From Hexactinellida sp. DTS-2022 (lineage: Eukaryota; Porifera; Hexactinellida), in assembly GCA_028753945.1 (NCBI GenBank), contig JAPNXP010000002.1, positions 14,639,624 to 14,703,623 on the forward strand: a stretch of 64,000 nucleotides of DNA, given 5' to 3'. The position numbers and the translations under genes were made by a program. Below, piece by piece: positions 6,291 to 60,489 of this stretch. A model generated the notes under the pieces. That model saw only the letters and a list, made by a program, of their open reading frames with translations, was not told where the DNA came from and searched no databases. Position 1 is the stretch's first letter. Each line of letters starts with the position of its first letter.

Positions 6291-9200
6291 ATGGATTGTA
6301 TAAACTGCTTGACTAGATTACTAAAGACTGACTCTCTCTGTTTTTACAATCCAAGCGAAAAGTCTATTAATCTTATTGTTAAACATGAACAGTTTGTAAT
6401 CCAAGAAACCAATTTTAAGATCGAAGGATCGACAACAAAATGTGACATCAAGTGTCCGAATTGTTCTAGTATAGTTGGGAAAAAGCTCCCAATGGGTCCT
6501 AGTCAGACAATGATCCTGGCATTTGGGAATGAGAAGGTTAAACTACTAAATAGGAGACTTGATAAGAAAACAGAAAAGTGGAGTGTTGTCTTTAAACAAA
6601 CGCCTTTTAATGTCATTTCAGTTCGCACAGATTCCAATTTCTTTGGTAAGCCCCCTAAGCTCCAGAACACAGTTAGCCTTCCACAAACAGAACTAGTAAT
6701 CACACAACCAATAATATTTGCATCTAAGTTACCAGACTTTATATATACTGACTTGCTAACGTCTGACGTTGTCCCCAGGGAGTACCAAATAGCTGCCTAC
6801 ATAGAGGCTCTACAGAGGGACTTGCTAGTAGTTATTCCAACCGGGGCCGGGAAAACATTGATCGCTACTATAGTGGCTGCTAGAATGAAACAACTGAATC
6901 CAGACCTAATGGTCCTGTTTGTTGCAGAGCGAGTGCCACTGGTATTCCAACAGGGAGAGGCGATAAGTTATGACACTGACTTAGATGTCTGTTGTCTCAG
7001 TAGCGAGAATAGCACGAGGTTAAAACGGAATCAGCTGATAGAAGGGGAGTACGATGTTCTGGTGTCTACTGCTGGGGCCTATGTGAACCTAGAACAAGAG
7101 TTGGGTATAAACAGGTTCTGTTGTGTAATTTTCGATGAATGCCATCACGCGAGTAAGGCACACAATTATGTTAAAATATTGGAAAAGATAGGAGAGTGTA
7201 GTGCAGGTAACAAGCCTCGTGTGGTCGGGCTAACTGCTTCTCCTCCCTCTGTTAAAGGAGACTTAGTCGCTACTGAAAAGCTATTGAATGAGTTTAGGCA
7301 ACACTTTTTCAATGCACCTATTTATTACAACAGCTCCTTAGAGAGTACGGCCTACACTGATAAATCGATTGAAAAACAAATAGTCCCTTCAAATAAGGAT
7401 ATCTCATTTATTAGCTACAACAATATTCTTAAAAACGAACTTGTAACGATGGCAAACGTAATTAATAGAACGCTCGGCTCGCCTGTTATTGTAGTTGAAA
7501 ACTGGGGATCTGTTAAAATTAGGTTCCAATTATTAAAGATGTTGTACCATTTAGAAGCTAGTTACAATGTTGCGATTGACGTTACTGTTAAATCAATGAA
7601 GAAGATTTGTACAGCATTAGATATAACAGAAATGTTGGGTGTCACTTATGCAAATAGAATCTTGGAAGATTTGGAAGTCTACAGCAAACTTGAAAATTCT
7701 CAAAATTTATCTCCTAGACTGCAATCATTACGAGAACTCCTTTTGACGTTGGATGCTTTTTCTAAAATTATTATATTCGTTCACACGCGACAGATAGCTC
7801 AGATATTAACCACATTACTGAAAGAAGATCCGGTTATTGTTAGCAAATATTCTCCACAGAAGATAGTCGGTCAATACGGAGTGTTGGGAATGGGATGGGA
7901 AAGCGAGCAAAAGGACATTTTGGAGAAGTTCCGCCACGGCAGCTGTAACCTGTTGGTGAGCACCTCTGTGCTCGAGGAGGGACTAGATGTCCCTGAGTGC
8001 GACGTCGTTATACGGTTTGACGGAATTAAATCTCTAACTTCTTTCAAACAGAGCAAAGGACGGGCTAGAAAACTCGAGGGTAGTAGGTTTATTATGATTC
8101 TATCGGAAGATGAACATGCAGCTTTTAATGACATTCAAGCTAGTGAGTTTATTGTGCGAAAAGTTCTAGAAGAACAGCATTCTCTATGCCCCATACCTAC
8201 AAGACAAACCACGGACATACAGCAGCATATCATGGCTGATACAGTTAAACCTGATAACTCAGACTGTAGTATAATCCAGTCTACAGAGTGTGCTGCTGAG
8301 TTCTACATAGCTGGAGCACAGGAGCCAGTCGACTTACAAGAGTGTATTTCTGAACTTCTGCTAGATAAATATTTCCTCAGAGTGAAGCTTATTGACAAAG
8401 CTAAGAGTAAAGCCGAATGGAAATCAAAGAACATATTTCCCATTTCAGATGCCATGCTTACACTTGGGCTACAGTGTCAGTCACATAACATATATCCAAT
8501 GTATAAGAAGTTAACAGTGGATTGGGATTTTACTCTGAACCATAAGCGTATCCATGTATGGAGTAGAATTCTATTGTCATTCACAAAAGAGCTTCTAACT
8601 ACGGACCACTGGTCTGTGAAATCTATACAATGGGGTAAATTCAACTCTGCTTATTCATTTTATTCTGCCAAACATTGTAAACTGATAAATGGGGAATTAA
8701 GTTTCCAGTTAGAACCATCTACTGTTAAAGGGAATCTTAAGAGAGCCATTCTTATTAAGATTCAAACTGAATTGACAATTCTAATTAACTTTGTTACAAT
8801 ATATAGATTTATATTTGCCGACTGGACTGATGAAGCTGTTACTCTCTATTTCCCATTGTCAAGTAGTCCTATTATTAATCAAAGTGAGGATAAAAATACG
8901 ACAAGACTGACAGCTGAAAATTCTCAATATCTTGAAATGTTTGGACAGTTTCCTGTTATAGGAATCAAACTCGAATATTCTAAATCCAATTGGAGTTATC
9001 TATGGTCATTTTTACATTCATCCACTAACTTTCCTGTCCCAATATTTGATACGCGCATCTCAATACAAACTCCCCAGTTAATAGTACACAACACTCTTTC
9101 GAACCACCCTTCATATTGGGACAAGCTAGTACAAGATTGTTTGTGGGCTTTGTCTGTTCTTAAATGCAGTCGTTATGTGTGCATCCCTGAGGATTCTATT

Positions 9201-12200
9201 GGGCTAATCTCTAAACTTATCGACAGGCATTCTCACCAGTCTTCTTGCGAGTATTCTACTATATCTTTATGGCGCCTCTTATTGGTCATTTCCAGCCCAA
9301 AAGCTCCCTACTTCATGGATTTATTTAAAGAGTTTTCTATGCAAGTACAGTATGTTTACGACAAACAACTTTCCACCCCATTAATTCCACCAAATTATAT
9401 GAACATAGAATGCGCTATGGTGACTCCATCTCGCGTTATTTGTCTCCAACCGATTCTGACCCAATCGAGTAGGCTGTTTAGGAACTATCCGAATGAACGT
9501 TTTCTAAACTTAGCCTTCAGAGACGAGCAAGGACAGCCTCTACAAGCCAAGGGAATATTCATGTTTGTTAAGAAGATAATAAGAACAGGAGTGGAAATTG
9601 ATGGAAATAAATTCCATTTTCTAATTTGTAGCGGGAGTCAGCTGAGAGTGAAACGCGCAATATTTATACACATCCAGGATGCTAAATCGGCTGTTAAAAG
9701 AATAAGTGATATTCGATACGAGTTGGTTGGTAACTCTCCTATTTATAACGAGACAAAGTACCTCTCTCGGCTAGGCCTTTTCTGCACCTCTGATCATCCC
9801 AGTTATTCTATTAGGGAATCAGAAACGCATTGCTTGCCTGACTTGATTGCTACAAATGATTTACTGTTAACTGATGGAGCTGGGAAAATTAGCAGAAGTT
9901 TAGCAATAAAAATAATAAATAAATTAAGAATTGAGAATCAAACGCTTATAGGGAGTCCCTCTGCACTCCAAGTGAGACTAGCCGGGTTGAAGGGAGTGCT
10001 CACAGTTGTTGACAAGGGTTCTGATCCTGATTTTAAGCGTGTCGCCCATCCTTGTGACATTATTTATAGAAAATCTATGAGGAAAATTGATTGGACAGAC
10101 TCAACTCTCTGTATTGTAAAGTATGCCAACTATAACCAATTGTTTCTAAACATGCAATTTATAAATCTGATATCTTCATTAGAGGATTCCCTTAGTAAAT
10201 GGAAACCTGGAATTCGGCTTAAATCACTGTTTGAACAGTACATCAATAACATTGCACTGATATTCACAGATTCTGATATAGCGAATAAAGAGTTACTTTC
10301 TAATCTTGCTAACTACTTTGAAGACATTGTAGCCCATTTTGATATTTTGAGCGAGCCATATCACCTCTCACTGCTCCGCTGTATTTACACATACAAAGTT
10401 AAGACTTTGTTGAAAAGTTCTCGAATTCCTATAAAAGACGCTTGTTTGCTAATGGGGATCCCAGACCCAATTGGTGTACTAAATGATGGAGAGATATCAG
10501 TTAGTTTTCAGACAGAACCTAAATCTGATATAATGAGGTTAAACGGACGTGTGTTAGTTTATAAAAACCCATGTTTGCACCCTGGGGACTTGTTAACACC
10601 GATAGCTGTTGATAAATCCGAGCTGTATTATCTTGTCAATGTGGTAGTATTTCCTACAACTGGTGCCACGTCTCTACCAGCTAGCTCCGGGGGCTCAGAC
10701 TTAGACGGAGACGAGTTCGCTATTATTTGGGACAATACTCTCATACCGCCAAAATGTGCTACTGTAGAACCGTTGAATTATGACTTAGTATTGAAAAGAG
10801 CTTTGGCTTTGAAAGGAAATTGTAACAATGAAGAAAATACTAAAATTCTTGTACAGAACAACCCCTGCATCCAAGACGATTTGGCTGCAGCTTATCACAG
10901 CGTGGTTTCTAATGATTCCCTTGGGATAATATCGCACTACCATCTCTCCATCTGTGACCAGAAGCCTCTCGGAGCCTGTGACCCGTTGTCAGTCGAGTTA
11001 GCTGAAGCTGCCTCCCTCGCAGTAGACTCTCCCAAAACCGGAATAATTCCTGTAATTCCCAAGGAAGCCAAAATGTTAATTGCAGAGAATGGTTATCCAG
11101 ACTTTATGCAAAAAACCGAATACACTTCATATTCAAGCTCAAAATTATTGGGAGAATTCTATCAAATGACCAAGTCCATAGGCTACGAGACATCTGAATG
11201 GAACCAATTAAAGCATGACCTTAAAGGTCAGTTTCAGGGCTGCTACATCCCTGCTCGTGCTTTGAAGACTCAAGGTTATCGCAGTTACTTGAAGGATGCT
11301 AATTTCAGGTATCACGAGTATGCTAATGCGCTACAGAGAATAATGCTTTCGTTTGGCGTGGAGACGGAGGCTGAAGCTATTATGAGTTTAATCATTGAGT
11401 GTCATCCTATGCTGTCAGCGGATAAGGGGAAAATAACAGATTCTCTAAAAACTGCTATAGAGTACCTTGTTCGAGAATTTCGTGAAATATTTCATAGAGA
11501 TACACCTCAAAGTAATCTCCTAGCAAAAGCTTCTGCCTGGTATCAGGCCGCCTACAGTAAGAGAGGAGAGACAGTCTTCTTGTCTTTTCCGTGGATAGTT
11601 GGGGATTATCTATGCCGTATAGCACCTGTTATGACTCATAGTTCAGGCTTGTATAGTTGTATGGGACAATCAGCAAAAGAGTACATTTGCAAGAATAGCG
11701 ATTACATTAAATCTGTTGTGGATTCAAAACTATGTGTGTTGCCACAAGTACAGGCATGCATCAATGAAAATGGACCTCTCTTCACTATCACTGCATTCGG
11801 ATCCGTTCCATGTTATTTGTGTGGACTGCAGTCAGATTTAGATCTGTCAATATCTTTGACTGCAAAGGGCATCGAGACTGTTTCTGGATCAGCTGATTAT
11901 AAGAGTTTGTCGTCTAAACTAAAACAGGCGCATATACTGAATACATTCATATCTCCCTGTGTTACTGAAATATCCAATGAAATACAGAATAAGATAACCG
12001 CGACACCACCCATTATCTCTCTCACCATTGACTCGCCACAAGAGGGATGCACTGAGATACAAATTGACTTAGCAATTGATAGCGACGGTGTTCAAAAGTC
12101 GGAATATATTAAGCGACTTTACGTAGAGACGCGTGGTGTATTCTTCGCTTGGCTTTGGATCATTGTACACTGGGCTAGACATGTAGGCATACTCAAATTT

Positions 12201-14009
12201 CATAGCACACAAGAGAACACAGGGGTTATTTTAACTGCGGAATTTGAAGCATTAGCTTTATACATTTATGAAAGAATGTCTCAAAAACCGAGATGCCGAA
12301 TTCAACGCGATTTCGATTCTTCATTAGACAATTTAATCAAGTCTATTATGAACACAAATATCGATTCTAAATTGGGAATGATGCTGGAAGAATTCTTCAG
12401 GTTGGGTGCTAAAATTACGAAGGAGAGTAACGATATAACTTATACTTGGCCAGTTAGAGGCGAGCCGACACATACGATCTCAAGAGGATCTCTGAAGGAG
12501 ATTTCTGTTCTGTTATTGCAGGCTTGGCACTGCTTAGTATTCACTCGTGATATTTCAACGCTTTTTAACACAAATAATACACAATCTCTTAAAAAACGAT
12601 TTTCACCTTTTATTAGTGATCAGCTTAGGCAATCTACAGAATTCTATCGAACTCTGTTAGAGAAAAAGACTGGAGCTCGTATTGCAATAGAACAAGTCGG
12701 TCGTAATCTCCTGCTTACAGCTAAAGGCCCGGCTAGATCGATTCACGACCTTTACACAGAAATATGTCTAATCGAGAAGAACACTGCGCTCTCTTATAAC
12801 TTCAGAACTCATGCTTGTCATTACATGTTGGATGGTTGCATGTGTTTGGTGATGTACCACCAAGTGACATTTCCCAGGGTTAAGCTACTTACGTACAGTA
12901 CTCCATTATCTAAGCTCCATCATAACTATAATCAGAAATCACATGTCGTGTTAGCTGATAATGCAGTGGATATAAATTGGCTTCAACACTGTGTCGTAAA
13001 ACTACAATCTTTAATGTGGAATCAATTGCAACGTTTTCCCGCGCACGATTCTGACCTTCTGAAGAGGTTGCAGTTTAAAACTAGGTTCGGTTTCTTTTAC
13101 ATTTTAGACGGACTGGAAGCGCTCCAGAATGTTGGAGTTGCTCTTTCTTTAGAAGAATTCGAAAAGTGTTTACTAAATTCCAAAAGGTTCCCTAAACATC
13201 TTCTCAGTCAATACCAAGAAGACGACAATCCCAACAAGTTCGACAAGAAGAAAACACTGCCTAAACAAGCTCGTAAGTCAACTAAGCAAAAAACAAGATC
13301 ATTAAGTAGCGCTTTTTGTCCTGGAATACAAGTGGGGGTGGGCTCTTCACAAAAACCACAATGTGTGTACCAACGAGCTCTCGAGGCCTGTGGATTCAAG
13401 CCAATTGAGTTAGAAAATTCAAGAGTGTGGAGAATTGATGTTAAGGGAACTATTAAGAGAGATTTACAAATTGACTTCAACAGTAATTTTGAAGTAATTA
13501 AAATCGGTGAACGTCCATTTATTTGGATGTTGGCTACAATAGTAGGAGATCGGAGAGATCCTCTTACCATTGATAAAGTACATGATATTAGGTTGCGCGT
13601 TGAGAGCTACAAGTCCATGGACATTGATTCTCAACTGTTTACACATATTTTTCATGATAAAATTGACTCTCCGATCCTTTCGGTAGGAGAAGATGGATTT
13701 CCTATACTTCTTAACAAATATCTCTGTAATCGCGTTAAGTTAATAAAGCACAATGCTTCAATTCAGTACTACAAACTAGACGATTGTATAGCTAAAATAT
13801 GCCTTGGGTTTGAGTACAGTGGAGATAATGTGATGAGATGTAGGCAGTTTTGGGAACTGTCTCTGCATCACAGCGAAACTGAGCTCAGAGAAGCCGTCGC
13901 GTCTGGCTGTAGACTTAAAGATATCCAAACAATTGTCACCAAAGCTGTGGAAATCTCTTTAAAAGTTTCTAATGCAATTTCTCGCATTTTAGGAAATACA
14001 GTTACTTAA
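6291..14009 (+). CDS. Helicase / RNA-dependent RNA polymerase / nucleotidyltransferase fusion protein
   Basis: This is a 2572-aa uninterrupted frame. N-terminus: C3, C6, C51, C55, C58 may bind zinc. Residues ~160-620 are a Dicer/RIG-I-type SF2 helicase: Q-motif REYQ (163-166), Walker A PTGAGKT (183-189), DECH box (282-285), GLTASP (313-318), motif IV IIIFVHTR (493-500), STSVLEEGLDVP (557-568), motif VI QSKGRAR (587-593). Residues ~1040-1700 are a eukaryotic cellular RdRP (QDE-1/RDR family): TDGAGKIS (1194-1201), 'LAGLKGVL', 'KNPCLHPGD' and the catalytic loop DLDGD (1470-1474). Residues ~1790-2100 are a polymerase-beta-like nucleotidyltransferase: G1837-S1838, SDLDL with D1849 and D1851, third acid D1926, then a PAP-type helical domain. 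Every key residue is present. The predicted role is to copy RNA into dsRNA for small-RNA amplification, with built-in unwinding and non-templated 3' nucleotide addition. The tail (2100-2572) is unassigned and has a basic linker near 2325-2345. It is not a viral polymerase type. Confidence 0.93.
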   Translation: MDCINCLTRLLKTDSLCFYNPSEKSINLIVKHEQFVIQETNFKIEGSTTKCDIKCPNCSSIVGKKLPMGPSQTMILAFGNEKVKLLNRRLDKKTEKWSVVFKQTPFNVISVRTDSNFFGKPPKLQNTVSLPQTELVITQPIIFASKLPDFIYTDLLTSDVVPREYQIAAYIEALQRDLLVVIPTGAGKTLIATIVAARMKQLNPDLMVLFVAERVPLVFQQGEAISYDTDLDVCCLSSENSTRLKRNQLIEGEYDVLVSTAGAYVNLEQELGINRFCCVIFDECHHASKAHNYVKILEKIGECSAGNKPRVVGLTASPPSVKGDLVATEKLLNEFRQHFFNAPIYYNSSLESTAYTDKSIEKQIVPSNKDISFISYNNILKNELVTMANVINRTLGSPVIVVENWGSVKIRFQLLKMLYHLEASYNVAIDVTVKSMKKICTALDITEMLGVTYANRILEDLEVYSKLENSQNLSPRLQSLRELLLTLDAFSKIIIFVHTRQIAQILTTLLKEDPVIVSKYSPQKIVGQYGVLGMGWESEQKDILEKFRHGSCNLLVSTSVLEEGLDVPECDVVIRFDGIKSLTSFKQSKGRARKLEGSRFIMILSEDEHAAFNDIQASEFIVRKVLEEQHSLCPIPTRQTTDIQQHIMADTVKPDNSDCSIIQSTECAAEFYIAGAQEPVDLQECISELLLDKYFLRVKLIDKAKSKAEWKSKNIFPISDAMLTLGLQCQSHNIYPMYKKLTVDWDFTLNHKRIHVWSRILLSFTKELLTTDHWSVKSIQWGKFNSAYSFYSAKHCKLINGELSFQLEPSTVKGNLKRAILIKIQTELTILINFVTIYRFIFADWTDEAVTLYFPLSSSPIINQSEDKNTTRLTAENSQYLEMFGQFPVIGIKLEYSKSNWSYLWSFLHSSTNFPVPIFDTRISIQTPQLIVHNTLSNHPSYWDKLVQDCLWALSVLKCSRYVCIPEDSIGLISKLIDRHSHQSSCEYSTISLWRLLLVISSPKAPYFMDLFKEFSMQVQYVYDKQLSTPLIPPNYMNIECAMVTPSRVICLQPILTQSSRLFRNYPNERFLNLAFRDEQGQPLQAKGIFMFVKKIIRTGVEIDGNKFHFLICSGSQLRVKRAIFIHIQDAKSAVKRISDIRYELVGNSPIYNETKYLSRLGLFCTSDHPSYSIRESETHCLPDLIATNDLLLTDGAGKISRSLAIKIINKLRIENQTLIGSPSALQVRLAGLKGVLTVVDKGSDPDFKRVAHPCDIIYRKSMRKIDWTDSTLCIVKYANYNQLFLNMQFINLISSLEDSLSKWKPGIRLKSLFEQYINNIALIFTDSDIANKELLSNLANYFEDIVAHFDILSEPYHLSLLRCIYTYKVKTLLKSSRIPIKDACLLMGIPDPIGVLNDGEISVSFQTEPKSDIMRLNGRVLVYKNPCLHPGDLLTPIAVDKSELYYLVNVVVFPTTGATSLPASSGGSDLDGDEFAIIWDNTLIPPKCATVEPLNYDLVLKRALALKGNCNNEENTKILVQNNPCIQDDLAAAYHSVVSNDSLGIISHYHLSICDQKPLGACDPLSVELAEAASLAVDSPKTGIIPVIPKEAKMLIAENGYPDFMQKTEYTSYSSSKLLGEFYQMTKSIGYETSEWNQLKHDLKGQFQGCYIPARALKTQGYRSYLKDANFRYHEYANALQRIMLSFGVETEAEAIMSLIIECHPMLSADKGKITDSLKTAIEYLVREFREIFHRDTPQSNLLAKASAWYQAAYSKRGETVFLSFPWIVGDYLCRIAPVMTHSSGLYSCMGQSAKEYICKNSDYIKSVVDSKLCVLPQVQACINENGPLFTITAFGSVPCYLCGLQSDLDLSISLTAKGIETVSGSADYKSLSSKLKQAHILNTFISPCVTEISNEIQNKITATPPIISLTIDSPQEGCTEIQIDLAIDSDGVQKSEYIKRLYVETRGVFFAWLWIIVHWARHVGILKFHSTQENTGVILTAEFEALALYIYERMSQKPRCRIQRDFDSSLDNLIKSIMNTNIDSKLGMMLEEFFRLGAKITKESNDITYTWPVRGEPTHTISRGSLKEISVLLLQAWHCLVFTRDISTLFNTNNTQSLKKRFSPFISDQLRQSTEFYRTLLEKKTGARIAIEQVGRNLLLTAKGPARSIHDLYTEICLIEKNTALSYNFRTHACHYMLDGCMCLVMYHQVTFPRVKLLTYSTPLSKLHHNYNQKSHVVLADNAVDINWLQHCVVKLQSLMWNQLQRFPAHDSDLLKRLQFKTRFGFFYILDGLEALQNVGVALSLEEFEKCLLNSKRFPKHLLSQYQEDDNPNKFDKKKTLPKQARKSTKQKTRSLSSAFCPGIQVGVGSSQKPQCVYQRALEACGFKPIELENSRVWRIDVKGTIKRDLQIDFNSNFEVIKIGERPFIWMLATIVGDRRDPLTIDKVHDIRLRVESYKSMDIDSQLFTHIFHDKIDSPILSVGEDGFPILLNKYLCNRVKLIKHNASIQYYKLDDCIAKICLGFEYSGDNVMRCRQFWELSLHHSETELREAVASGCRLKDIQTIVTKAVEISLKVSNAISRILGNTVT

Positions 14010-14144
14010 TTAACCGAGTTTCTATGCAGTAGTTTCATATCTTTATATTATTATTGTATTTTGTGATATAATTTATTTCACCATAAGAACATGATTACGT
14101 ATACAATCATATTAACTAAATACATAAGAAAAGACTAAATATAA

Positions 14145-14150
14145 TAATAA
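14145..14150 (+). terminator. Probable polyadenylation signal of the RdRP fusion gene
   Basis: AATAAA lies 136 bases downstream of the RdRP stop, before the convergent SLC27A gene (last coding base 14223). The 213-bp convergent spacer is otherwise AT-rich and without features. Confidence 0.45.
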
Positions 14151-14222
14151 ATATTCGAATATAGTGGATAACATAAGGCACGCACAGTAAGCAGAGTAAT
14201 ATGAGGGGGGATGGGTAGTAAG

Positions 14223-16157
14223 TCAGAGCCTAAGTTTGCTCTCCATCAAAAGGTCAAATAGTTCAGTGTCGAGAGGCACATACTTGTTGCACCTGGGGTC
14301 GAGAAAGAATATTGGATCAGTCACTGAGTTGACATCAAATCCTGCCTTCTTGAAATTCACCTTGCTGTACTTGTACGTAACTGTCAGCTCCGGTGCCGCT
14401 ATCAATCGGATGAACAGAGGCACAGAGTAGTGAGGTAGCCTCTGCCTGAAGCTGGCCAGCAGACTGTCCAAATCGATCTCGGGTTTAGCAATGGCAGCCA
14501 TGCCCGCTCTACCCTCGATGCCAGGTATGGCAACCGAGTATACAACGACGTCGTCATGACCAATAATAGAAGTGATGATGGATTCCACTTCACTTGTGCT
14601 AACGTTCTCTCCTTTCCACCGGAATGTATCACCTCTTCGATCTAGAAAAGTTAGAAAGCCTAGCTCATTGCAAGATAGCACGTCTCCTGTCCTAGAATAG
14701 GTGTCTCCTTCAATGCAAACATTACGAATAATTCTCTTCTTAGTCGCCTCATCTGACAAATAACCAATGAATTTTTTCGGTCCATCCTTAACCATACCCA
14801 GTATCTCCCCAGGCTCATTGGGTTCACAGCGAATACACAATCCATTCGATGATCGGACAGGCTCGCCTGTCTCGGGATCAAGTTTGGCAAGAAAGTTTAT
14901 GTTATAGAACAATTTTAGGATCGGGATATCCTTCAGAGAAACTGGGAGAAAGCCTACATACCCTGGCTCTGATACGATATTTGCTGTTCCGCCATAGCCT
15001 TCTGTTGAACCGTACGCCTCGATAATCTGTGATATCTGAAACCTATTCTTAAAGTCATGCCATAGACAAGGTCTTAGTCCATTCCCGATTGCTCGAGTGA
15101 CCTTGTGGCCTATGTCCGTAGCTTTATTGGGCTGTGTCAGTAAATAGCGACACAATTCCCCTATGTAGAAGATAACAGTGCAGTTGTGAGTATGACAATC
15201 CTCCCAGAATTGACTCGCACTGAACTTCTGCTTTAGCAGCATGCTACTCCCAGATTCCAGCATCGTGCAACCCGCCAGAAGGAGGGCACTGGTGTGATAG
15301 AGAGGCAGGGTTACATACAGCACGTCATCAGGTACCACATTTGCTATGAGTTTAAACGCAGAGCCAAAAAGGTTGGCTTTATTGTGTGGAATAACACATG
15401 CCTTAGGGAGACCAGTTGTTCCAGATGTGTATATGTAGCAGAAGGTAGACTTAGCAGTGATATTGCTGTCTCTATCATCTGGTGCAGTATTCGGGCAGTC
15501 TCGACTGAGTTGTATAATGTCCCTGTAGTGCGTTGCGGTCTCTCCTCGGCACAGGGAATAGTACAGCATGTTCGTGTCTAGGTGCTCTTCCACACACTTG
15601 ACATTATCACTGAGAGAGTTGGAAACTATTACACCCTTGCATGATGCGGTTTTAATCGCGTGGACCAACTGCTGATCTCGAATGTTGAAGTTTACTAGCG
15701 AAACGGGACAGCCTAGCTGGGATAATGCCACGAGAATAACAAAAAACTCTGGACAGTTCTCTGCAATCAGTGCAACGGTGTCCCCCACCTCTAGACTAGT
15801 GTTTGTTGATATAAAGTTAGACACTTTGTTTGCCGCTGAAACAATGTCTATATAAGTCCATTGCTCATCGTTGAACATAACTGCTACTTTATTTGGGGAT
15901 GTTTCTGCCCATTTCTTCCATTTCTTATGGTAAGTTTCATTTATTTTGATGAATCGCTTTTCTTCTTTTCCAAGATGCACCATCATTTTGACTAGCTTCA
16001 TATCTCTCCTAATGGTTTGTTTTATGCGCCAAATAACATGCCAGCCTCCTAATAGGATGTATATAGAGGGGAGGGTAACTAGAAATGCCATTGCGCTAGC
16101 ACTAGCCCAAGACACTAGGACTCCAAAGATAATCGAGATCCACAACCTTTTCCCCAT
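14223..16157 (-). CDS. SLC27A: SLC27A-type fatty acid transport protein / very-long-chain acyl-CoA synthetase, copy 1
   Basis: This single-exon, 644-aa protein has the usual length for the FATP family (620-690 aa). It has a hydrophobic N-terminal segment (residues ~8-40), an AMP-binding P-loop 'YTSGTTGLPKACVIPH', the adenylation motif 'EAYGSTEG' and the FATP signature 'DRRGDTFRWKGENVSTSEVE'. 'KFSASQFWEDC' and 'YIGELCRYLLTQP' are also typical of SLC27A. The enzymes activate long and very long fatty acids to acyl-CoA at the ER or plasma membrane and so drive uptake. The gene is convergent with the RdRP gene. It is the inverted twin of the gene at 18281-20215. The two differ at few residues except in a dense patch just after the P-loop (residues ~258-275), where copy 1 reads NKANLFGSAFKLIANVV. 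Confidence 0.93.
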   Translation of the reverse strand: MGKRLWISIIFGVLVSWASASAMAFLVTLPSIYILLGGWHVIWRIKQTIRRDMKLVKMMVHLGKEEKRFIKINETYHKKWKKWAETSPNKVAVMFNDEQWTYIDIVSAANKVSNFISTNTSLEVGDTVALIAENCPEFFVILVALSQLGCPVSLVNFNIRDQQLVHAIKTASCKGVIVSNSLSDNVKCVEEHLDTNMLYYSLCRGETATHYRDIIQLSRDCPNTAPDDRDSNITAKSTFCYIYTSGTTGLPKACVIPHNKANLFGSAFKLIANVVPDDVLYVTLPLYHTSALLLAGCTMLESGSSMLLKQKFSASQFWEDCHTHNCTVIFYIGELCRYLLTQPNKATDIGHKVTRAIGNGLRPCLWHDFKNRFQISQIIEAYGSTEGYGGTANIVSEPGYVGFLPVSLKDIPILKLFYNINFLAKLDPETGEPVRSSNGLCIRCEPNEPGEILGMVKDGPKKFIGYLSDEATKKRIIRNVCIEGDTYSRTGDVLSCNELGFLTFLDRRGDTFRWKGENVSTSEVESIITSIIGHDDVVVYSVAIPGIEGRAGMAAIAKPEIDLDSLLASFRQRLPHYSVPLFIRLIAAPELTVTYKYSKVNFKKAGFDVNSVTDPIFFLDPRCNKYVPLDTELFDLLMESKLRL

Positions 16158-16319
16158 TTATTGTCTGTAGTTTTCCAAATCTCTTTGTTATAGTCGCTCT
16201 ATTATAATGAATTCATATTCATAGATATTGATTTCAACTTAATTGAACTCGTGACTTTTCTATTATTAGTTTGCCATGCGTAACTCGGATTTAATTACCA
16301 ACTGAATGACTTGCTCTAT

Positions 16320-16420
16320 TATTTTTGGACGCCAGATCGTAAGATACAAACAAGAGTTCTATTCGATTGAACAGTTTCTAAGCTCGATGCAAACAAATCA
16401 ATGTATTGTTTCTAGCCAGA
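16320..16420 (+). pseudogene. Remnant resembling ERCC4 5' end and first intron
   Basis: Bases ~16325-16345 resemble the start of ERCC4 exon 1 ('GAGCGTCAGATCG' at ~22376 versus 'GGACGCCAGATCG' here). Bases ~16353-16412 match ERCC4 intron 1 up to its 3' splice site (~22718-22775), sharing 'CGATGCAAAC' and 'AATGTATTGTTTC'. The intervening exon 1 sequence is missing. The mirror image is at ~17985-18095 in the right arm. So the duplicated block originally ran from SLC27A across its divergent neighbour ERCC4. The identity rests on short matches. Confidence 0.5.
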
Positions 16421-16505
16421 TCCTATCTGCCTGCCATGTAAATCAAATCAAATTTTTGAAAATTTCATTTGATTTGATTCTAAAATATTACAAATTATTT
16501 TTTAA

Positions 16506-16910
16506 TTGGCGAGCCCAAGAGTTTGTTGCTGCGAACACACATTGTGGTTTTTGTGTACACATTCCCACCCACTTGTATTCCAAGACAAAATATACTACTT
16601 AAAGATTTTTTTGCATAGGTTACTTGAGAACAGGTTTAAGCAGTGTTTTCTTAAACTTGTTGTGATTGTTGTCTTCTTGGTGTTGACTGAGATGTTCGGG
16701 AACCTTTTGGAATTTAGCAAACTCTTTTAGAATTCTTCTAAAGAAACAGAATCTCCAACATTCTGGAGCGCTTCCAGCCTGTCTGAAATGTAAAAAACCG
16801 AACAACCCGTTATTACTGAGTGTTGCTGTGTGTATATGTTTCTGGTTTGAGTAGTACAAAACCGAAGTCTTAATATTTGCTACGGAACATGTCGACATTA
16901 TTCTATCAAT
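16506..16910 (-). pseudogene. Chimeric pseudogene: HYDIN fragment joined to RdRP-protein C-terminal fragment
   Basis: Read on the minus strand, ~16865-16805 matches HYDIN bases ~1078-1150 ('IHTATLSNNGLF' here, 'IHTAILCNNGLF' in HYDIN). It then runs without a gap into ~16800-16506, which matches RdRP bases ~13085-13390, including 'GGAAGCGCTCCAGAATGT' and 'GGAATACAAGTGGG'. Identity is about 80% by eye, with indels and stops. The two sources lie 12 kb apart in the same orientation, and the join falls where both read TTCGGTTT-like sequence. An open frame of 103 codons (16620-16931) covers part of it, but no function is implied. Confidence 0.75.
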
Positions 16911-17420: not shown

Positions 17421-17934
17421 ATTAATTAACAACTTATGAAAATTGGAATTCCCCAATCAAATTATCATGGGTAACATTCTTAATTTACCTAGAATGAATT
17501 GATAGTTAATGTTAAATTTGAAAGCTATGCCGCGAAATGGCTTTTAACTTGATGCACACAGACACGAACGAACAAAGGCCATAAAAAGGGGACTTTGCGA
17601 GGAATTATATTTAATACACCACACAGATTTATATTTCTAAATAATTGGGCTCATCGCTTAGTAAGGCCTTCATCGACTGCTAATTGAGACGCGAAGCGAC
17701 CGAGAGCAAAGATCTGGTAATTTACAAATGGTTTAAAATAACTTGAAATTACTTTGAAAACGATTTGAAAATGAGTTGAAAATCATTTGAAATAATTTGA
17801 ATTACGTGTAATATGAAAATGATTGAAATTTGAAAATGATTTAACTTGATGCCCGCATACACGAACGAACATAGACCATAAAAAGGGACTTTGCGAGGAA
17901 TTTATTTAATATACCATGTAAAGATTTATACTAG

Positions 17935-20240
17935 AATAAAATCAATTTTCAAATAATTGATTTGATTTATAGCCCTGGCAGGCAGATGGATCTGGCCAGA
18001 AACAAATTGATTTATTTGCATCGAGTTTAGAAACTGTTAAATTGAATAGAACTCTTGTTTGTATCCAACGATCTGGCGTCCAAAAATAGTAGAGCAAGTC
18101 ATTCAGTTCGTAATGGAATCCGAGTTACGCAAGGTCAACCAACTAAGTACATAATAATAGAAAAATCACGAGATGAATGTAAGTTGACATCTAACAATGT
18201 ATGTAATTAGACCTATGAATATCATTAGCGCGACTATAAGTACACCGTTACAAGAGATTTGGAGAAACTACAGACAATAAATGGGGAAAAGGTTGTGGAT
18301 CTCAATTATCTTTGGAGTCCTAGTATCCTGGGCTAGTGCTAGCGCAATGGCATTTCTAGTTACCCTCCCCTCTATATACATCCTATTAGGAGGCTGGCAT
18401 GTTATTTGGCGCATAAAACAAACCATTAGGAGAGATATGAAGCTAGTCAAGTTGTTGATGCATCTTGGAAAAGAAGAAAAGCGATTCATCAAAATAAATG
18501 AAACTTATCATAAGAAATGGAAGAAATGGGCAGAAACAACCCCAAATAAAGTAGCAGTTATGTTCAATGATGAGCAATGGACTTATACAGACATTGTTTC
18601 AGCGGCAAACAAAGTGTCTAACTTTATATCAACAAACACGAGTCTAGAGGTGGGGGACACCGTTGCATTGATTGCAGAGAACTGTCCAGAGTTTTTTGTT
18701 ATTCTCGTGGCATTATCCCAGCTAGGCTGTCCCATTACGCTAGTAAACTTCAACATTCGAGATCAGCAGTTGATTCACGCGATTAAAACCGCATCATGCA
18801 AGGGTGTAATAGTTTCCAACTCTCTCAGTGATAATGTCAAGTGTGTGGAAGGGCACCTAGACACGAACATGCTGTACTATTCCCTGTGCCGAGGAGAGAC
18901 CGCAACGCACTACAGGGACATTATACAACTCAGTCGAGACTGCCCGAATACTGCACCAGCTGATAGAGACAGCAGAATCACTGCTAAGTCTACCTTCTGC
19001 TACATATACACATCTGGAACAACTGGTCTCCCTAAGGCATGTGTTATTCCACACCTTAAAGCCAACATGATAGGCGCTGCGTTTGCAGCCTTTGGAAAAG
19101 TGGTACCTGATGACGTGCTGTATGTAACCCTGCCTCTCTATCACACCAGTGCCCTCCTTCTGGCGGGTTGCACGATGCTGGAATCTGGGAGTAGCATGCT
19201 GCTAAAGCAAAAGTTCAGTGCGAGTCAATTCTGGGAGGATTGTCATACTCACAACTGCACTGTTATCTTCTACATAGGGGAATTGTGTCGTTATTTACTG
19301 ACGCAGCCCAATAAAGCTACGGACATAGGCCACAAGGTCACTCGAGCAATCGGGAATGGACTAAGACCTTGTCTATGGCATGACTTTAAGAATAGGTTTC
19401 AGATATCACAGATTATCGAGGTGTACGGTTCAACAGAAGGCTATGGCGGAACAGCAAATATCGTATCAGAGCCAGGGTATGTAGGCTTTCTCCCAGTTTC
19501 TCTGAAGGATATCCCGATCCTAAAATTGTTCTATAACATAAACTTTCTTGCCAAACTTGATCCCGAAACAGGCGAGCCTGTCCGATCACCGAATGGATTG
19601 TGTATTCGCTGTGAACCCAATGAGCCTGGGGAGATACTGGGTATGGTTAAAGATGGACCAAGAAGGTTCATTGGTTATTTGTCAGATGAGGCGACTAGGA
19701 GGATAATTATTCGTAATGTTTGCATTGAAGGAGACACCTATTCTAGGACAGGAGACGTGCTATCTTGCAATGAGCTAGGCTTTCTAACTTTTCTAGATCG
19801 AAGAGGTGATACATTCCGGTGGAAAGGAGAGAACGTTAGCACCAGTGAAGTGGAATCCATCATCACTTCTATTATTGGTCATGACGACGTCGTTGTATAC
19901 TCGGTTGCCATACCTGGCATCGAGGGTAGAGCGGGCATGGCTGCCATTGCTAAACCCGAGATCGATTTAGACAGTCTGTTGGCCAGCTTCAGGCAGAGGC
20001 TACCTCACTACTCTGTGCCTCTGTTCATCCGATTGATAGCGGCACCGGAGCTGACAGTTACGTACAAGTACAGCAAGGTGAATTTCAAGAAGGCAGGATT
20101 TGATGTCAACTCAGTGACAGATCCAATATTCTTTCTCGACCCCAGGTGCAACATGTATGTGCCTCTCGACACTGAACTATTTAACCTTTTGATGGAGAGC
20201 AAACTTAGGCTCTGACTTACTACCCCCTCATATTACTTGC
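17935..20240. repeat. Right arm of the large inverted duplication
   Basis: This is the reverse-complement partner of 14196-16470. It carries the plus-strand SLC27A gene and, upstream of it, the mirrored ERCC4-like remnant (~17985-18095). The flank between 18100 and 18270 has more differences from the left arm than the coding part does. Confidence 0.85.
18281..20215 (+). CDS. SLC27A: SLC27A-type fatty acid transport protein / very-long-chain acyl-CoA synthetase, copy 2
   Basis: This 644-aa single-exon gene is the inverted twin of the 14223-16157 gene. It has the same N-terminal membrane anchor, P-loop 'TSGTTGLPKACVIPH', 'YGSTEG' and FATP signature 'DRRGDTFRWKGENVS'. Differences from copy 1 are scattered and mostly conservative, except for a cluster at residues ~258-275 (LKANMIGAAFAAFGKVV here). 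A further change alters the residue before YGSTE (EVYG versus EAYG). Both copies keep a full open frame and all catalytic motifs, so both are probably expressed. The clustered changes lie in the segment after the P-loop and could alter acyl-chain preference; that is inference. An acceptor-like 'AACTACAG' lies eight bases before both ATGs. Confidence 0.93.
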   Translation: MGKRLWISIIFGVLVSWASASAMAFLVTLPSIYILLGGWHVIWRIKQTIRRDMKLVKLLMHLGKEEKRFIKINETYHKKWKKWAETTPNKVAVMFNDEQWTYTDIVSAANKVSNFISTNTSLEVGDTVALIAENCPEFFVILVALSQLGCPITLVNFNIRDQQLIHAIKTASCKGVIVSNSLSDNVKCVEGHLDTNMLYYSLCRGETATHYRDIIQLSRDCPNTAPADRDSRITAKSTFCYIYTSGTTGLPKACVIPHLKANMIGAAFAAFGKVVPDDVLYVTLPLYHTSALLLAGCTMLESGSSMLLKQKFSASQFWEDCHTHNCTVIFYIGELCRYLLTQPNKATDIGHKVTRAIGNGLRPCLWHDFKNRFQISQIIEVYGSTEGYGGTANIVSEPGYVGFLPVSLKDIPILKLFYNINFLAKLDPETGEPVRSPNGLCIRCEPNEPGEILGMVKDGPRRFIGYLSDEATRRIIIRNVCIEGDTYSRTGDVLSCNELGFLTFLDRRGDTFRWKGENVSTSEVESIITSIIGHDDVVVYSVAIPGIEGRAGMAAIAKPEIDLDSLLASFRQRLPHYSVPLFIRLIAAPELTVTYKYSKVNFKKAGFDVNSVTDPIFFLDPRCNMYVPLDTELFNLLMESKLRL

Positions 20241-21319
20241 CCTATAAGGTATTTATCCACCACAATTCGGATATTTGGTTAAATTTAGTTATTCTTATAT
20301 TTATCACTTATATTATAGCATTTAGTTCATTACACATTATATGGTGATCCTTCGAATCTTCACAATCTATTATTTTCTAGGTTAAAGGACATTTCGCGGC
20401 ATAGCTTTCAAATTTTCATTAATTACCAATTAATTCTGGGAAAATTAAGGATGTTAACATGATAATTTGTTGGAGGAATTATAATTTTAATAATTTGTTA
20501 ATTAATCTATATTATTAAAACTCGACTGTTGTGTGGTGTTTGTTTGTTTGTTTGTTTGTTTATTTATTTGTCCGGATTAGAAGGGGAATAGAAACCGCAT
20601 TTTATTTTAGATAAAAACGAACTTCCAAATGTTATAATAGGTAGACAAGTATGCTGATTACGAATTTCGAATTTATAGATTATAATATGAATATTTATTG
20701 TTGTTGTTTGTAAATAAATTATTCAAAATTCAAAATGAACCTAGAGGCTAGATTCCAACGGTTATTATAGGTCAAGGCTGGATTCGGTTAATCGTTGCTA
20801 ATGTTGTTTGACTTAATGGTAACAGAATTTATCAACCAGTTAGCCAGTTTGTATACCAGTAGTGTTATTGGTAAATTGATGTATAAAATATAAAAATAAT
20901 CTAAATTTTGTTAGAATATGATAACCATAGATCAATTTCCAATCACCGCAAATACATTTTCTGTAACAACATTGTTTCTAATTTACCTAAAGTACGAAAT
21001 GTATCAGTTAAAGTACTTTTGAGGGAGTACTTTTCTAGAGCTGAGTCTTATACTATAGTATAATCAAATTGTTCTAGGTTATTTGTATTGAGTAGGGGGT
21101 GGGCGATTAGCCGGTTAACCGTGGGGAGAAATCGAATCGTAACCGTAGCCTTTGAACGGTTGACCAACCCCACCCTTGTGGAAAAACAAAGCCGCTAAAT
21201 GGTATAGACCTGAGGCAAAAGTAGACAAGAACGAACAAAAGCATTAAATTTTAAGGGGGCATTGTGAGGAAGAGTTTTAATACTCCACATAAATTTATAG
21301 TTCTGAATATCTACTTCCT
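20216..21319. other. Intergenic region, repeat-derived
   Basis: The first ~25 bases finish the inverted arm. Bases ~20390-20900 belong to the dispersed Helitron-like family. Bases ~21190-21300 contain another diverged piece of the 'GAACGAACAAAAGC' unit seen at 17560, 17860 and 58040. No coding potential is visible. Confidence 0.55.
20506..20900 (+). repeat. Dispersed repeat, Helitron-like 5' terminus (copy 1)
   Basis: It begins 'TCTATATTATTAAAACTCGA', followed by 'CTGTTGTGTGG', an imperfect TTTG run and 'TTTGTCCGGATTAGAAG'. The TC start after an A and the AT-rich first 15 bases resemble Helitron 5' ends, but no CTRR 3' end with hairpin was found, so the class is uncertain. Related copies are at 17040-17420 and 35880-36437, both on the minus strand. 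Confidence 0.5.
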
Positions 21320-50356: not shown

Positions 50357-53300
50357 TCATTTACTTGGATTTCCTTTCATCTTTTCGTATACTTTTTCTA
50401 AGAGTATACAGTAGCGATGCTTTCCATTGAGCTGATCCAAACTGTGATTCGCAATTCTTCCCATTTTCAGCCTATCTGCTATACGGAATGGGGCGAATAA
50501 CCAATGAGCTAACTCATGACACGACGGTAGCACCTCATCTGATGAGGGCAAGCTCCACACACTACAGGCTACTCCGTCCACTATTATCATACTGTTATAC
50601 GTTACAGGCGAATAATAGCCTTCCGAGTAAAGAGAGCGCGATACGTTAACCACAGGCGTAGGATCGCAACGAGCGTTAAGGGAATTGATTACAAAAACTA
50701 CATCTCCTATTCTCACTTTCCCCGCTGCCATAAGCTCCGCTGATTGTAGGCTATTAATACAATTGTTTTGTGGGCTGCATAGCACTAGATGTTGCGGTGT
50801 TAACGTTAATGTACCGTCCTTATAGTGTATCTGTATGAACTCCCCGTTAGTTACTGTTGTTATCAGGTGTGCCCACATGTATACCTTAGAGTATACTAGC
50901 TTGAGGGATTTTCTGTCTATTGACAAGACATAATCCCCTGGCTCAAGTCTTTCAATTGGAATCTTAGTGCCGCCTTTGAGAACAACAGTTGAAGAGCCCG
51001 GGAAACATCCATCGTCTGGATTAATCTTAGTTTTTGATTTTATACTCTGACCTTCTCTTGTATTTTCATCAATTAATTCGTCAAATATTTCATTTGTGTC
51101 ACCCTCTTTTTCAGAACTTCCCTGTGTGTTGTTGTGCCCTGTCTGTTCAGTTTGTCGGTTCGATTGCTTCGTTGTGGATCGCGGTATCGGCACTGGCCTA
51201 ACATTCAAAGGTTGTTTCGGAGGAAGTGGTCCTGATATAGTTGATGATCGTTGCGTCGATAACTGTTGCTCAAGTTTGTCCATAACATTTTTCTTTGTTA
51301 CCGCTCGTCTGGGGACTGGTTCTGGCTTGCCATTACTCTGTAAAACTGGGTTGGGAGGCGTTAAATCTTCTAGCAAGTCTTCGCTTATGTCTAAGTTAGT
51401 ATAGCTACTCCCTTTCTCCAGCTGATTAGCTTTAGTGCTATCAGCGCTAGCGCTCTGTATCAACTGCGGTTTCGGTTTGAGGGCGGGTCTCAAGGGTAGC
51501 ATTGTGATAATCTTTTTGGGATCATATTTGTCGCCAGGGTGTGCAGGTAGCGATTCCCCGATTCTGGCTTCTACAGGTCTTTTGGGGGTAATTATGGGAT
51601 TGGGGTAGTTGGGTGGTTTAATTGGTACTTTTGGCAAACTCTTAATATGCCCCTCGTTTTGTTTTGTTTCGCTTTCGTTAGTTTGTATGAATTCCACTGT
51701 TTCCTCTTTATTCTGTGGGTTTTCAATTATGACGAAACTATCTAGACTTCGCTTTGCCCTAAATGGCGGAATGGGTTTCACGTTTGTTTGGGGGTTAGCT
51801 AGCAGGTGAGAGAATTCTAGTTCGTTGTTGCTATACGATATATTAGCGCTATCTGGGTGTGTGCTGTCAAACGCCTCTTTCACCAGTTCTCCTTTCTCAC
51901 TGTTTACCAATTTTGCGAAAAAGTAGATTGGAACAGTCGTGAGGGAATGTTCGAATATCACGGGCTGATCCGACAGCGACTCGAGCCAACTTAGATACTG
52001 ATCCGATCTTAACTTCCCGAATTTATCTGGAAATTCATCTGTATTCCCTCCTAAATATTGAATAGAAGACTGTTCGATCCCTCTCATCATTCCGTAATTA
52101 CTCTCATCGTCTTGTTGCTCCCAATCTTTGCTCAGGTTTTTCAGTCGTTCGATGTGCCCCTCTATTCCTATTTGGATATCCCGAATTGGCATGTTACGAT
52201 TTGGCGGTTTGTAGTTACCTTGGAGAAATCCCCCTGCGCTCCCCTTTATAATAACCCAATAGCCATAGTTGACAAAGAATTCTTTAAATTCATTGTTGAA
52301 TTCGCCTTTACACTTCTCAGTCTCGTTCGGCAAACTTACTACAGCTTTATTAAATTCAGAGTTTAACGAGATATTCCTAAAATCGAGAGCTATAGTGAAA
52401 ATGTACTCTTCTACGCCAAAGTAGAATCCCTCCAAAAAACCGCAAACTACGTCATCACTGTTCTCTTTGTATTTTCGGACATTTGCTATTGAATCGCAAT
52501 CGCTTCGAATTAGCGAGGTTCTGCCATAGCTTACATCTAGCTTCTTACACTGCGAAACAGTGTAGCGAATAGGAATCTTTTTCACCAGAGTAGAGTTAAA
52601 GACGATTTTATCCGATTCTACAGGTTTAAATACTTCTTTCGGAGCGAGTTGTTCGCAAAACCATTCAAATCCTTTTCCAATAACCCCTAACGATTCCCCT
52701 GAGTAGATTGTATTGTCAATTTCAAGCACACTCATAACAATGTATTTTTCAATGCTGTTAAGTGGGCATTTCTTCTGTTTTAAGATCAGTTTGTAAGATT
52801 TTTGCAATTCTTTGAATGTTTTAATGTTATGCGATTCCAAAACCCGGAATAAGGGATCGAAAAACCCTTTCTCTTCAAAGGAAACTTCGGGGAACTCCTG
52901 GTAAATTTCATCTTTTCTCTCCCGTATAAATTTATCCAGGATTAACGCTACCTCTGTTTTAGTGTTGAGGGTTAAGTTTTTGCTGAGCTCTTCTGACCAT
53001 TTGATTCTACATCTCTCAATGTACTTTTTGTCTATCCTAACTTCGTCTACAATGTGTCTTTTCTCAATTTTCCCCTCCAAATGACGACTCCCAAAGAAGA
53101 TACGTACCGCTTCAATCCCTACCTCATCATTACAGTTTTTCATTTGCTTCTTCATTGCATTGTAAAGGTTTAATGGTTGTTTCTTGCCATCTCTCAGTAG
53201 AGTGAAATCCCCACACGCCTTCAAGTTATTATCTACGTATCTGTTCTCAATCATAACTACAGGTGCCGTTACTCCCAAGAATTCCCTAGAGAGTTGTCGC

Positions 53301-59289: not shown

Positions 59290-60270
59290 TTATCTGATTC
59301 TTCTCTCTTCCAAGTATTTCCCAAACACAACTGCAAATAGTCCAGTGATTATCAGCACTGCTCCAATGTACTGGAGGGGATTAAGAACTTCTCCGTTGAT
59401 TAGATAGGAACCAATGAAACAAGGTATAACTTGCAAGGGCCAGAATGCCGTTACAATACTAGTATTGGTCTGTGAGTTCGCCCATGTTATCAAGGAGTAA
59501 CAGAAACAAGAAGTTATAAAAACAGCATATATAAGAGCAACCCATTCTTCTTGGGATAAGTAGAAAGCCTCGGGCGTGTTAGCATAGTAGAGACTGGCCA
59601 AACTGATAAAGATAGAACCTGTCATGTAGGTCCATGTAATGACCCAAATTGGATGATTGCGCCATTTATTGTTTGGTTGGTCGAATATAAATATTTTCTG
59701 ACACACATAGTATATACTAGTCAATATTGTACTGAAAAATATAATTGTAAACCCTAATGGGGAGTGCTCAGGGCTCGTGGTATTCTGTCTTGCTGAATTA
59801 AAAAAGGTCATTATAATCGCGCCAAAAACTGCGAACGATAGCCCCAATAGTTTAAGCCAAGTTGGAAACACCTTTATGCTGGGTACCTTCTCTGTACAAG
59901 TGATTATGGTTAACAAAGTTGTCCATATGGGAATGATCTGTTGGAAAATAGTAGTGATATTGGCACCAACAAGTGTTAAACTGAGTAGGTAGAGCACCTG
60001 ACAAAAGAAAACCCCGATTAAACCCAGCCCCATGAATACCAAACAGTCGTTCCATTTCGGTATTCCCAACCATCCATCAGAAATCAGCGCGAGTATAAAG
60101 AATACTGGGAACGAACAAACGTCTCGAGCCATACAGAAAATTAAAGGATTTCCTTTAATTCCTACTCCTAGATTTCGGGCTATCACTGGGTATAAACCAA
60201 AGCCAGTTTGTGCGGTTATTAACGCCAGAACAATGATTCCAAAGTTTCGTGTGGGTTTAGCCGACTTCAT
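59290..60270 (-). CDS. EamA/DMT-superfamily transporter, array copy 1
   Basis: The 326-aa single-exon protein has ten predicted transmembrane segments in two EamA halves. The first half is at ~10-150 ('LALITAQTGFGLYPVIARN' lead-in; 'FQQIIPIWTTLLTIITCTEK' is the typical helix 4). The second half is at ~175-320, ending 'YIGAVLIITGLFAVVFGKYL'. The fold and the helix-10 ending resemble drug/metabolite transporters such as plant WAT1-like and animal SLC35-type proteins. The substrate is unknown. It is the most downstream member of a tandem minus-strand array of four, and the C-terminal ~60 codons are almost identical among copies. Confidence 0.8.
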   Translation of the reverse strand: MKSAKPTRNFGIIVLALITAQTGFGLYPVIARNLGVGIKGNPLIFCMARDVCSFPVFFILALISDGWLGIPKWNDCLVFMGLGLIGVFFCQVLYLLSLTLVGANITTIFQQIIPIWTTLLTIITCTEKVPSIKVFPTWLKLLGLSFAVFGAIIMTFFNSARQNTTSPEHSPLGFTIIFFSTILTSIYYVCQKIFIFDQPNNKWRNHPIWVITWTYMTGSIFISLASLYYANTPEAFYLSQEEWVALIYAVFITSCFCYSLITWANSQTNTSIVTAFWPLQVIPCFIGSYLINGEVLNPLQYIGAVLIITGLFAVVFGKYLEERRIR

Positions 60271-60489
60271 AACAAATAAAATGGCAGCAAATAGACCTAT
60301 ACCCTAGTACAATATTGTTAAGATACTCATTAAAACAGTACTTTGACACGTTTGTTGAAAACTTATATTCGAGTAAATAATTCTACATATTAGATTTGTT
60401 AACTATACACTGAACAAAACTATTTAGGAATCAAATAATTTTGAAATAAATTTAGTTAAACAAAAATATAATCCCAAACGATTTGCATA

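Follow-up and report, generated by a model that had tools for sequence, protein, structure and literature searches.

Rdp1, Hrr1 and Cid12 are separate subunits of the fission yeast RNA-directed RNA polymerase complex (RDRC). Hrr1 is an orthologue of ZNFX-1, a superfamily 1 (SF1) helicase, and acts together with the RNA-dependent RNA polymerase (RdRP) and the predicted poly-A polymerase Cid12 (PMC9276528). In C. elegans, the tails placed on targets by RDE-3 recruit the RdRP (PMC12265681), and the RIG-I-like helicase DRH-3 acts in the production of secondary small interfering RNAs (siRNAs) (PMC8476169). Single proteins in which DEAD and Helicase_C domains precede an RdRP have been reported from Dictyostelium, oomycetes, Hydra and Nematostella (PMC4791657). 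Here we describe a gene in a 64,000-nucleotide stretch of genomic DNA (C11:14639624-14703623, referred to as the window), whose predicted product joins an RdRP to a Dicer/RIG-I-type superfamily 2 (SF2) helicase and to a Cid1-like nucleotidyltransferase (NTase). Our preferred reading, to which we assign a probability of roughly 0.6, is that this is a genuine multi-enzyme protein and serves the amplification of RNA silencing in a sponge, which is most likely a glass sponge.

Five predicted parts in a single open frame

We observed that positions 6291 to 14009 form one open frame of 2572 codons with no stop, whereas each of the other five frames contains 101-253 stops; at the local base composition, a frame of this length is expected by chance with a probability of about 1e-76. 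Five predicted parts follow one another in it: a four-cysteine domain, an SF2 helicase, an RdRP, a Cid1-like NTase and a C-terminal region. Their positions are given below, together with their conservation among the five genes of this architecture in the genome (class A).

6291..14009, plus strand: whole gene, one open frame of 2572 aa without visible intron
6291..6665, plus strand: N-terminal four-cysteine domain; C3, C6, C55 and C58 invariant in the 4 copies aligned
6741..8210, plus strand: Dicer/RIG-I-type SF2 helicase, residues 151-640; Pfam ResIII, DEAD and Helicase_C; PDB AncD1D2, 7.1e-40
6837..6857, plus strand: Walker A PTGAGKT, residues 183-189
7134..7145, plus strand: DECH, residues 282-285
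8049..8069, plus strand: helicase motif VI QSKGRAR, residues 587-593; 5/5 copies
9381..11621, plus strand: cellular RdRP, residues 1031-1777; Pfam PF05183; PDB 7eu0
10698..10712, plus strand: RdRP catalytic DLDGD (DxDGD), residues 1470-1474; 5/5 class-A copies
11622..11771, plus strand: RdRP-NTase linker; paralogue C11b holds a repeat at the same place
11772..12620, plus strand: predicted Cid1/PAP-type NTase, residues 1828-2110
11799..11804, plus strand: NTase GS, residues 1837-1838; 5/5 copies
11835..11843, plus strand: NTase DLD, residues 1849-1851 (D1849 and D1851); 5/5 copies
12066..12068, plus strand: third NTase acid, D1926; 5/5 copies; aligned with the D of standalone NTases
12369..12482, plus strand: segment resembling a PAP-associated domain (LG..LEEFF), residues 2027-2064, recognized by eye and by hhalign alignment with the LG..LEFF part of the genome's own standalone NTases
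12621..14006, plus strand: conserved C-terminal region, residues 2111-2572 (about 460 residues), no family match; 34-50% identity among the 5 copies

An earlier note on this DNA had placed helicase, RdRP and NTase in one uninterrupted frame, and Pfam indeed finds all three there; the residues that it had assigned to the Walker A, DECH, QxxGRxR (here QSKGRAR), DLDGD and GS motifs and to D1849, D1851 and D1926 were also the ones that we found. Its description of a protein of three enzymes was incomplete, as it had missed the N-terminal four-cysteine domain and the conserved C-terminal region.

On sequence grounds, the identities of the RdRP and of the Dicer/RIG-I-type helicase are unambiguous. 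Pfam matched ResIII (1.2e-18), Helicase_C (1.9e-18) and DEAD (3.3e-17), giving the domain order DEAD, Helicase_C, RdRP, and motifs I, II (DECH), III, V and VI of this helicase type are all present. Among the best 60 of 109 PDB matches, those of the helicase part were headed by the reconstructed ancestral Dicer helicase AncD1D2, its top matches being Dicer and RIG-I-like proteins, and residues 1031-1777 matched RNA-dependent RNA polymerase 2 (7eu0, 1.1e-51). The PF05183 match (7.4e-113, residues 1044-1625) reached 378.7 bits against a cut-off of 23.8 and covered positions 1-580 of the 582 in the profile.

The arrangement is repeated in a five-copy family

A search of the genome (112.4 Mb, 18 contigs) with PF05183 yielded 10 matches; seven of these are long open frames, and the other three are pieces at a single C1 locus. 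Five of the seven frames have the architecture of the window gene, and in each the NTase retains its catalytic residues: the window gene itself (2572 aa), C15 (2590 aa), C11b (2784 aa), C7 (2608 aa) and C4 (2231 aa from the first methionine). Helicase motifs IV-VI are kept in all five, and motifs I-III in the four copies whose main frame spans them, C4 being broken before residue 333. In C4, residues 1-332 lie about 3.6 kb from the remainder, and the helicase part of this gene contains an insert (L022 683-4292) carrying a gene whose product combines THAP with TNP-like RNase H domains; we take this insert to be a transposon of the P-element type. The insertion looks recent, because the inverted repeats that flank it are identical over at least 200 bp and are accompanied by an 8-bp target-site duplication.

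The class-A arrangement can be recognized at six loci, of which five keep the frame and the catalytic residues and the sixth, C1, has decayed. This copy is nearest to C7, which it matches in 10 pieces distributed over all three frames, eight of them with internal stops; the two stop-free pieces both fall in the NTase region and lie in different frames. C1 serves as a natural control. When the window NTase and C-terminal region were used together as the query against the genome, no copy was found beyond these six loci, except for a small fragment in the window at about 16530-16810. Among the five genes, divergence is greater at third codon positions than at first and second ones in 56 of the 56 pair-by-domain comparisons (for C4, the helicase entered with its C-terminal half only), which argues that every part is under protein-level constraint.

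These data also bear on whether the frame could be an artefact, either an assembly chimera or a read-through of adjoining genes taken as one protein. Rare run-on transcripts have been reported in glass-sponge long reads (PMC10282587). However, the order of parts is identical at five loci on four contigs, with frames intact at an overall identity of 40-55%, so all five loci would have to be misassembled alike. The flanks (0.7-1.3 kb per side) have nothing in common at corresponding sides; the single match, of 67 bp, links non-corresponding sides of C15 and C4. In addition, the 2A-type skipping motif NPGP is present in 0 of the 7 proteins encoded by the long RdRP frames, and for this reason a polyprotein with 2A skipping was rejected. 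An assembly chimera or a chance frame was discarded as well, because five loci share the arrangement; the artefact explanation is already contradicted, and we leave it next to no probability.

To follow the history of the family, we built FastTree trees (100 resamplings) for five domains, a set that leaves out the N-terminal domain and the N-terminal half of the helicase. The window gene and C15 were grouped in five of the five trees (75-100 of 100 resamplings), and C11b and C4 in four of the five (69-99 of 100). The tree of the C-terminal half of the helicase departs from this history, since it pairs C4 with C7 (78 of 100). Given that copies only 40-55% identical have mostly congruent domain trees, they probably descend from one fusion event that preceded the duplications and was kept afterwards, perhaps with some gene conversion.

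A divergent nucleotidyltransferase

The earlier note had located the NTase around residues 1790-2100, and Pfam recovered it there, although narrowly: in the whole-protein scan, MTPAP-like_central (PF22600) matched residues 1812-1938 with 28.5 bits (1.9e-6), the cut-off being 27. Scanned alone, the NTase domain of the window protein reached 30.6 bits, and all five class-A domains matched this family (E up to 10 admitted; best 4.2e-7). When PF22600 was searched genome-wide, four of the five class-A frames scored above the cut-off (27.2-33.2 bits, with three paralogues at 27.2-29.2). G1837, S1838, D1849, D1851 and D1926 are invariant across the five copies. We also observed that a profile of the five NTases aligns over 186 columns with three ordinary NTases of the Cid1 family encoded elsewhere in this genome (hhalign probability 84%, E 7.2e-6), the GS, DxD and third acid of both sets falling in the same columns. 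These standalone enzymes (L023, L039 and L040) share with the window NTase the GS...DxD...D triad and the aligned palm; they differ in that their PAP_assoc domain is clear and that the scanned frames gave no match to RdRP or helicase. The window NTase is fused, and Pfam did not detect PAP_assoc in it.

Several results weigh against assigning an NTase activity to the protein. The domain is divergent enough that whole-protein scans leave four of the five copies under the Pfam cut-off, at 17.8-23.7 bits (paralogue E-values of 0.0038, 1.0e-4, 1.5e-4 and 5.7e-5), and C15 was absent from the results of the genome-wide PF22600 search. Pfam detected PAP_assoc (PF03828) in none of the five copies at E values up to 10, a PDB search with the five-NTase profile returned no NTase (one chance match), and the single-sequence AlphaFold model of the domain was meaningless (pLDDT 33.6). 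The sub-threshold scores and the failure of Pfam to detect PAP_assoc would favor a real fusion in which the NTase persists as a structural or regulatory remnant, an inactive polymerase-beta fold in a protein working as an ordinary helicase-RdRP of the Dictyostelium or cnidarian kind. However, inactive remnants usually lose their metal-binding acids, and here all five copies, despite their low identity, keep G-S, D-x-D and the third acid unchanged. Moreover, NTase identity (45-59%) equals or exceeds RdRP identity in 4 of 10 pairs, all of them involving C15, and is lower in the other 6. We consider a remnant unlikely; the predicted NTase is real but divergent.

Terminal regions and linker

The N-terminal domain (residues 1-125) gave five matches in the genome, each heading a class-A gene. 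Three of the four members scanned showed weak similarity to Yippee-Mis18 (best 4.3e-4) and one of the four to RIG-I_C-RD (0.0025); the domain of the window protein lies under the cut-off for both. The Yippee and RIG-I C-terminal domain families share a fold, and the four cysteines would be compatible with a zinc domain like the RNA-end sensor of RIG-I. The single-sequence AlphaFold model of the domain was meaningless (pLDDT 34.6), and a profile search of the N-terminal alignment against PDB gave nothing meaningful (one chance match).

Between RdRP and NTase, C11b carries an in-frame coding minisatellite with a 27-bp unit (L010 6334-6838; 18.7 copies, no indels), which indicates that this place is a tolerant linker. 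For the C-terminal region, no Pfam match was obtained up to E 10 in any of the five members, and a profile search against PDB up to E 10 gave none either. The fragment of this region mentioned above is the following.

16535..16803 (about 16530-16810), minus strand: second, nearby and decayed copy of a stretch within the C-terminal region; 81% to 13085-13368; the matched frames contain stops

This decayed copy sits between the two arms of a 2.4-kb inverted repeat (14117-16482 and 17932-20303; 93% identical). Each arm contains a 644-aa AMP-binding ORF, presumably SLC27-like, and a transcript across the repeat, if made, could form a long hairpin.

A second RdRP architecture in the same genome

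The remaining two long RdRP frames, C18 (2079 aa) and C8 (2111 aa), are 54% identical to each other and 18-21% identical to class A. We refer to them as class B; their loci are the following.

L013 239-6475, minus strand: class-B RdRP locus
L014 3449-9781, plus strand: class-B RdRP locus

Both consist of an N-terminal P-loop domain, AAA_28 (1.9e-16 in C8; 5e-6 in C18), the RdRP and a C-terminal AAA_11/AAA_12 helicase, and both keep the motifs DLDGD, GPPGTGKT and DEA. Comparison of the SF1 helicase with PDB, carried out for C18 alone, revealed UPF1 as the nearest protein (8e-58) and ZNFX1 as less near (9.5e-40). No NTase was present among the Pfam matches of class B (C18 at E up to 1e-4; C8 in the best 25 of 34 families), and the class-A NTase query did not match C18 or C8. 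The amphioxus RdRP candidate BL02069, which carries AAA_12 (PMC6396948), resembles class B with its RdRP and AAA_11/AAA_12 SF1 helicase; hence, the idea that such a fusion is unprecedented was rejected. BL02069 is not of the window gene's kind; the figure legend describing it mentions neither an NTase nor an SF2 helicase. The presence in one genome of two helicase families fused to RdRP offers a clean comparison.

Silencing companions, host and neighbouring genes

We found a Dicer gene (L036 2679-7331, minus strand) consisting of one 1551-aa frame with a helicase, Dicer_dimer and two RNase III domains; its PAZ domain scored 28.4 bits, just under the cut-off of 28.8. A second Dicer-like gene corresponds to two adjacent frames, and a third frame includes two RNase III domains and a dsrm domain. 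Piwi-domain matches numbered fifteen, six of them in frames of 895-1052 aa that contain the domain complete or almost complete. From the presence of Dicer and of these frames, it follows that partners for siRNA production exist in this genome. Since the L036 Dicer retains its own helicase, a transfer of the helicase out of Dicer, as proposed for Dictyostelium, is unsupported here.

Regarding the host, the genome contains long genes in single frames and at least 16 homeobox matches, some of which are, in our reading, Msx-, NK2-, Six-, Islet-, POU- and PRD-like genes. No Wnt gene was found in a genome search run without a positive control, and glass sponges have been reported to be without Wnt (PMC10282587, PMC10280926). 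A non-animal (protist) host, first suggested by the missing Wnt, was rejected in view of these reports and of the homeobox genes. Xenoturbella was considered too, but Wnt and more homeobox genes would be expected in it. The neighbours of the gene in the window look like what a ciliated animal would ordinarily encode (CFAP65-like, AMP-binding, and HDAC with zf-UBP).

The origin of the gene could still be foreign, through contamination or horizontal acquisition, including an ancient transfer before the duplications. The lack of a visible intron would agree with this, and searches of prokaryote genomes (81 pattern matches) and viral contigs (47) gave no confirmed relative, which is of no help in placing the gene. 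Nevertheless, the five loci are dispersed on contigs of 3.6-15.6 Mb, the neighbours are those just described, Dicer and the six Argonaute/Piwi frames of this genome are likewise uninterrupted, and many single-exon genes have been described from a glass sponge (PMC10282587). A foreign gene is therefore very unlikely, and we continue with the reading of a sponge gene.

Two other features of the window were observed. One is a 1228-aa ORF on the minus strand (50357-54043) with an unusual combination of a P-loop GTPase (AIG1/MMR_HSR1), MACPF and a Hint module. The other consists of three tandem ORFs on the minus strand (59290-62822; 326-340 aa; DNA 73-77% identical), with a partial copy at about 63277-63736.

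Proposed role in siRNA amplification

The most likely role that can be predicted for the protein is tail-and-copy amplification of siRNAs. The helicase would load on, open or move along the target RNA, with the N-terminal domain perhaps sensing RNA ends; the NTase would extend the 3' end of a cleaved or aberrant target with untemplated nucleotides, and the RdRP of the same chain would take the tailed 3' end as its point of entry into the template, producing double-stranded RNA (dsRNA) or antisense siRNAs to be used by the Dicers and Argonautes of the genome. Steps that C. elegans carries out in trans, by RDE-3 tails and recruitment of the RdRP, would thus take place in cis through the fusion. 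The existence of four more fusion genes of this kind suggests that the amplifier is built as one machine instead of separate parts. As for the "one amplification machine" of the earlier note, a role in the amplification of RNA interference (RNAi) is plausible from the domains present, but the gene is one of five paralogues and not a single machine.

The presence of an RdRP does not by itself prove RNAi amplification. In amphioxus, RdRPs occur but evidence of secondary siRNAs is lacking (PMC6396948), and a study of Nematostella found no amplification (PMC12768352); both cases count against the proposed role, and they make RdRP-based amplification in animals outside nematodes a matter of interest. 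Along with the Dicer/RIG-I-type helicase and the weak RIG-I-CTD/Yippee-like signal at the N-terminus, they would fit a role outside siRNA amplification, e.g., innate sensing of viral RNA, or tailing-driven degradation of aberrant RNA with dsRNA synthesis as a signal. On the other hand, the same genome encodes a Dicer with a helicase and several Argonaute/Piwi frames, and no function of eukaryotic RdRPs other than RNAi amplification is said to be known (PMC6396948). We judge a role of this other kind rather improbable, and amplification remains our preferred reading.

A broader proposal, which we hold tentatively and at less than even odds, is that glass sponges rebuilt the RDRC as fusions in two ways. 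One would be the five-copy tail-and-copy family, with an RNA-end sensor, a Dicer-type helicase, an RdRP, a 3'-tailing NTase and a new C-terminal domain, in which the template would be tailed and then copied while staying on the protein; the other would be the two-copy family of RdRPs with a UPF1-like SF1 helicase. If this is true, the five-copy family would represent the first self-contained tail-and-copy enzyme of RNA silencing. That an RdRP and a probable tailing NTase are covalently joined, and that this link is conserved, is also a hint, in the style of a Rosetta stone, of a more widespread coupling between the tailing of templates and their copying, in line with what the work on nematode RDE-3 suggests, and the fusion offers one recombinant protein in which this coupling can be tested.

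Comparison with known systems

The window gene shares with the RdRPs of Dictyostelium, oomycetes, Hydra and Nematostella the order DEAD, Helicase_C, RdRP. The available part of the paper describing them mentions no NTase, and its diagrams are drawn with Pfam, which barely sees an NTase of the window type (PMC4791657); a divergent NTase could have been overlooked in cnidarian RdRPs or in those of other sponges, whose sequences lay outside our comparison. In Dictyostelium, Hydra and Nematostella, the fusion was tied to loss of the helicase from Dicer (PMC4791657), and a helicase domain was later reported in Nematostella Dicer1 (PMC12768352). Unlike what was argued for those three organisms, the sponge genome retains a Dicer with its helicase. 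The earlier note knew of no described three-way fusion in an animal. We found no helicase-RdRP-NTase fusion in the open-access literature, a scope that leaves most subscription papers and preprints outside; the helicase-RdRP half, however, was already on record for Hydra and Nematostella (PMC4791657). The three-way combination appears, from the domains predicted, to be a new variation on this published theme, repeated in a family of five genes.

As in the fission yeast RDRC, an RdRP, a helicase and a Cid-family NTase are brought together, but the yeast components are separate subunits and in the window protein they are fused. The term "single-chain RDRC" used by the earlier note is apt for the RdRP and the Cid-family NTase, which do share one frame, and not for the helicase, which is of the SF2 Dicer type. 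Equating the latter with Hrr1 was mistaken, as Hrr1 is the SF1 ZNFX-1 orthologue (PMC9276528), and the RdRPs fused to an SF1 helicase in this genome are those of class B, in which no NTase was found. In C. elegans, RDE-3, DRH-3 and the RdRPs RRF-1 and EGO-1 provide the same activities as those proposed for the sponge protein, but as separate proteins; the tail added by RDE-3 is poly-UG.

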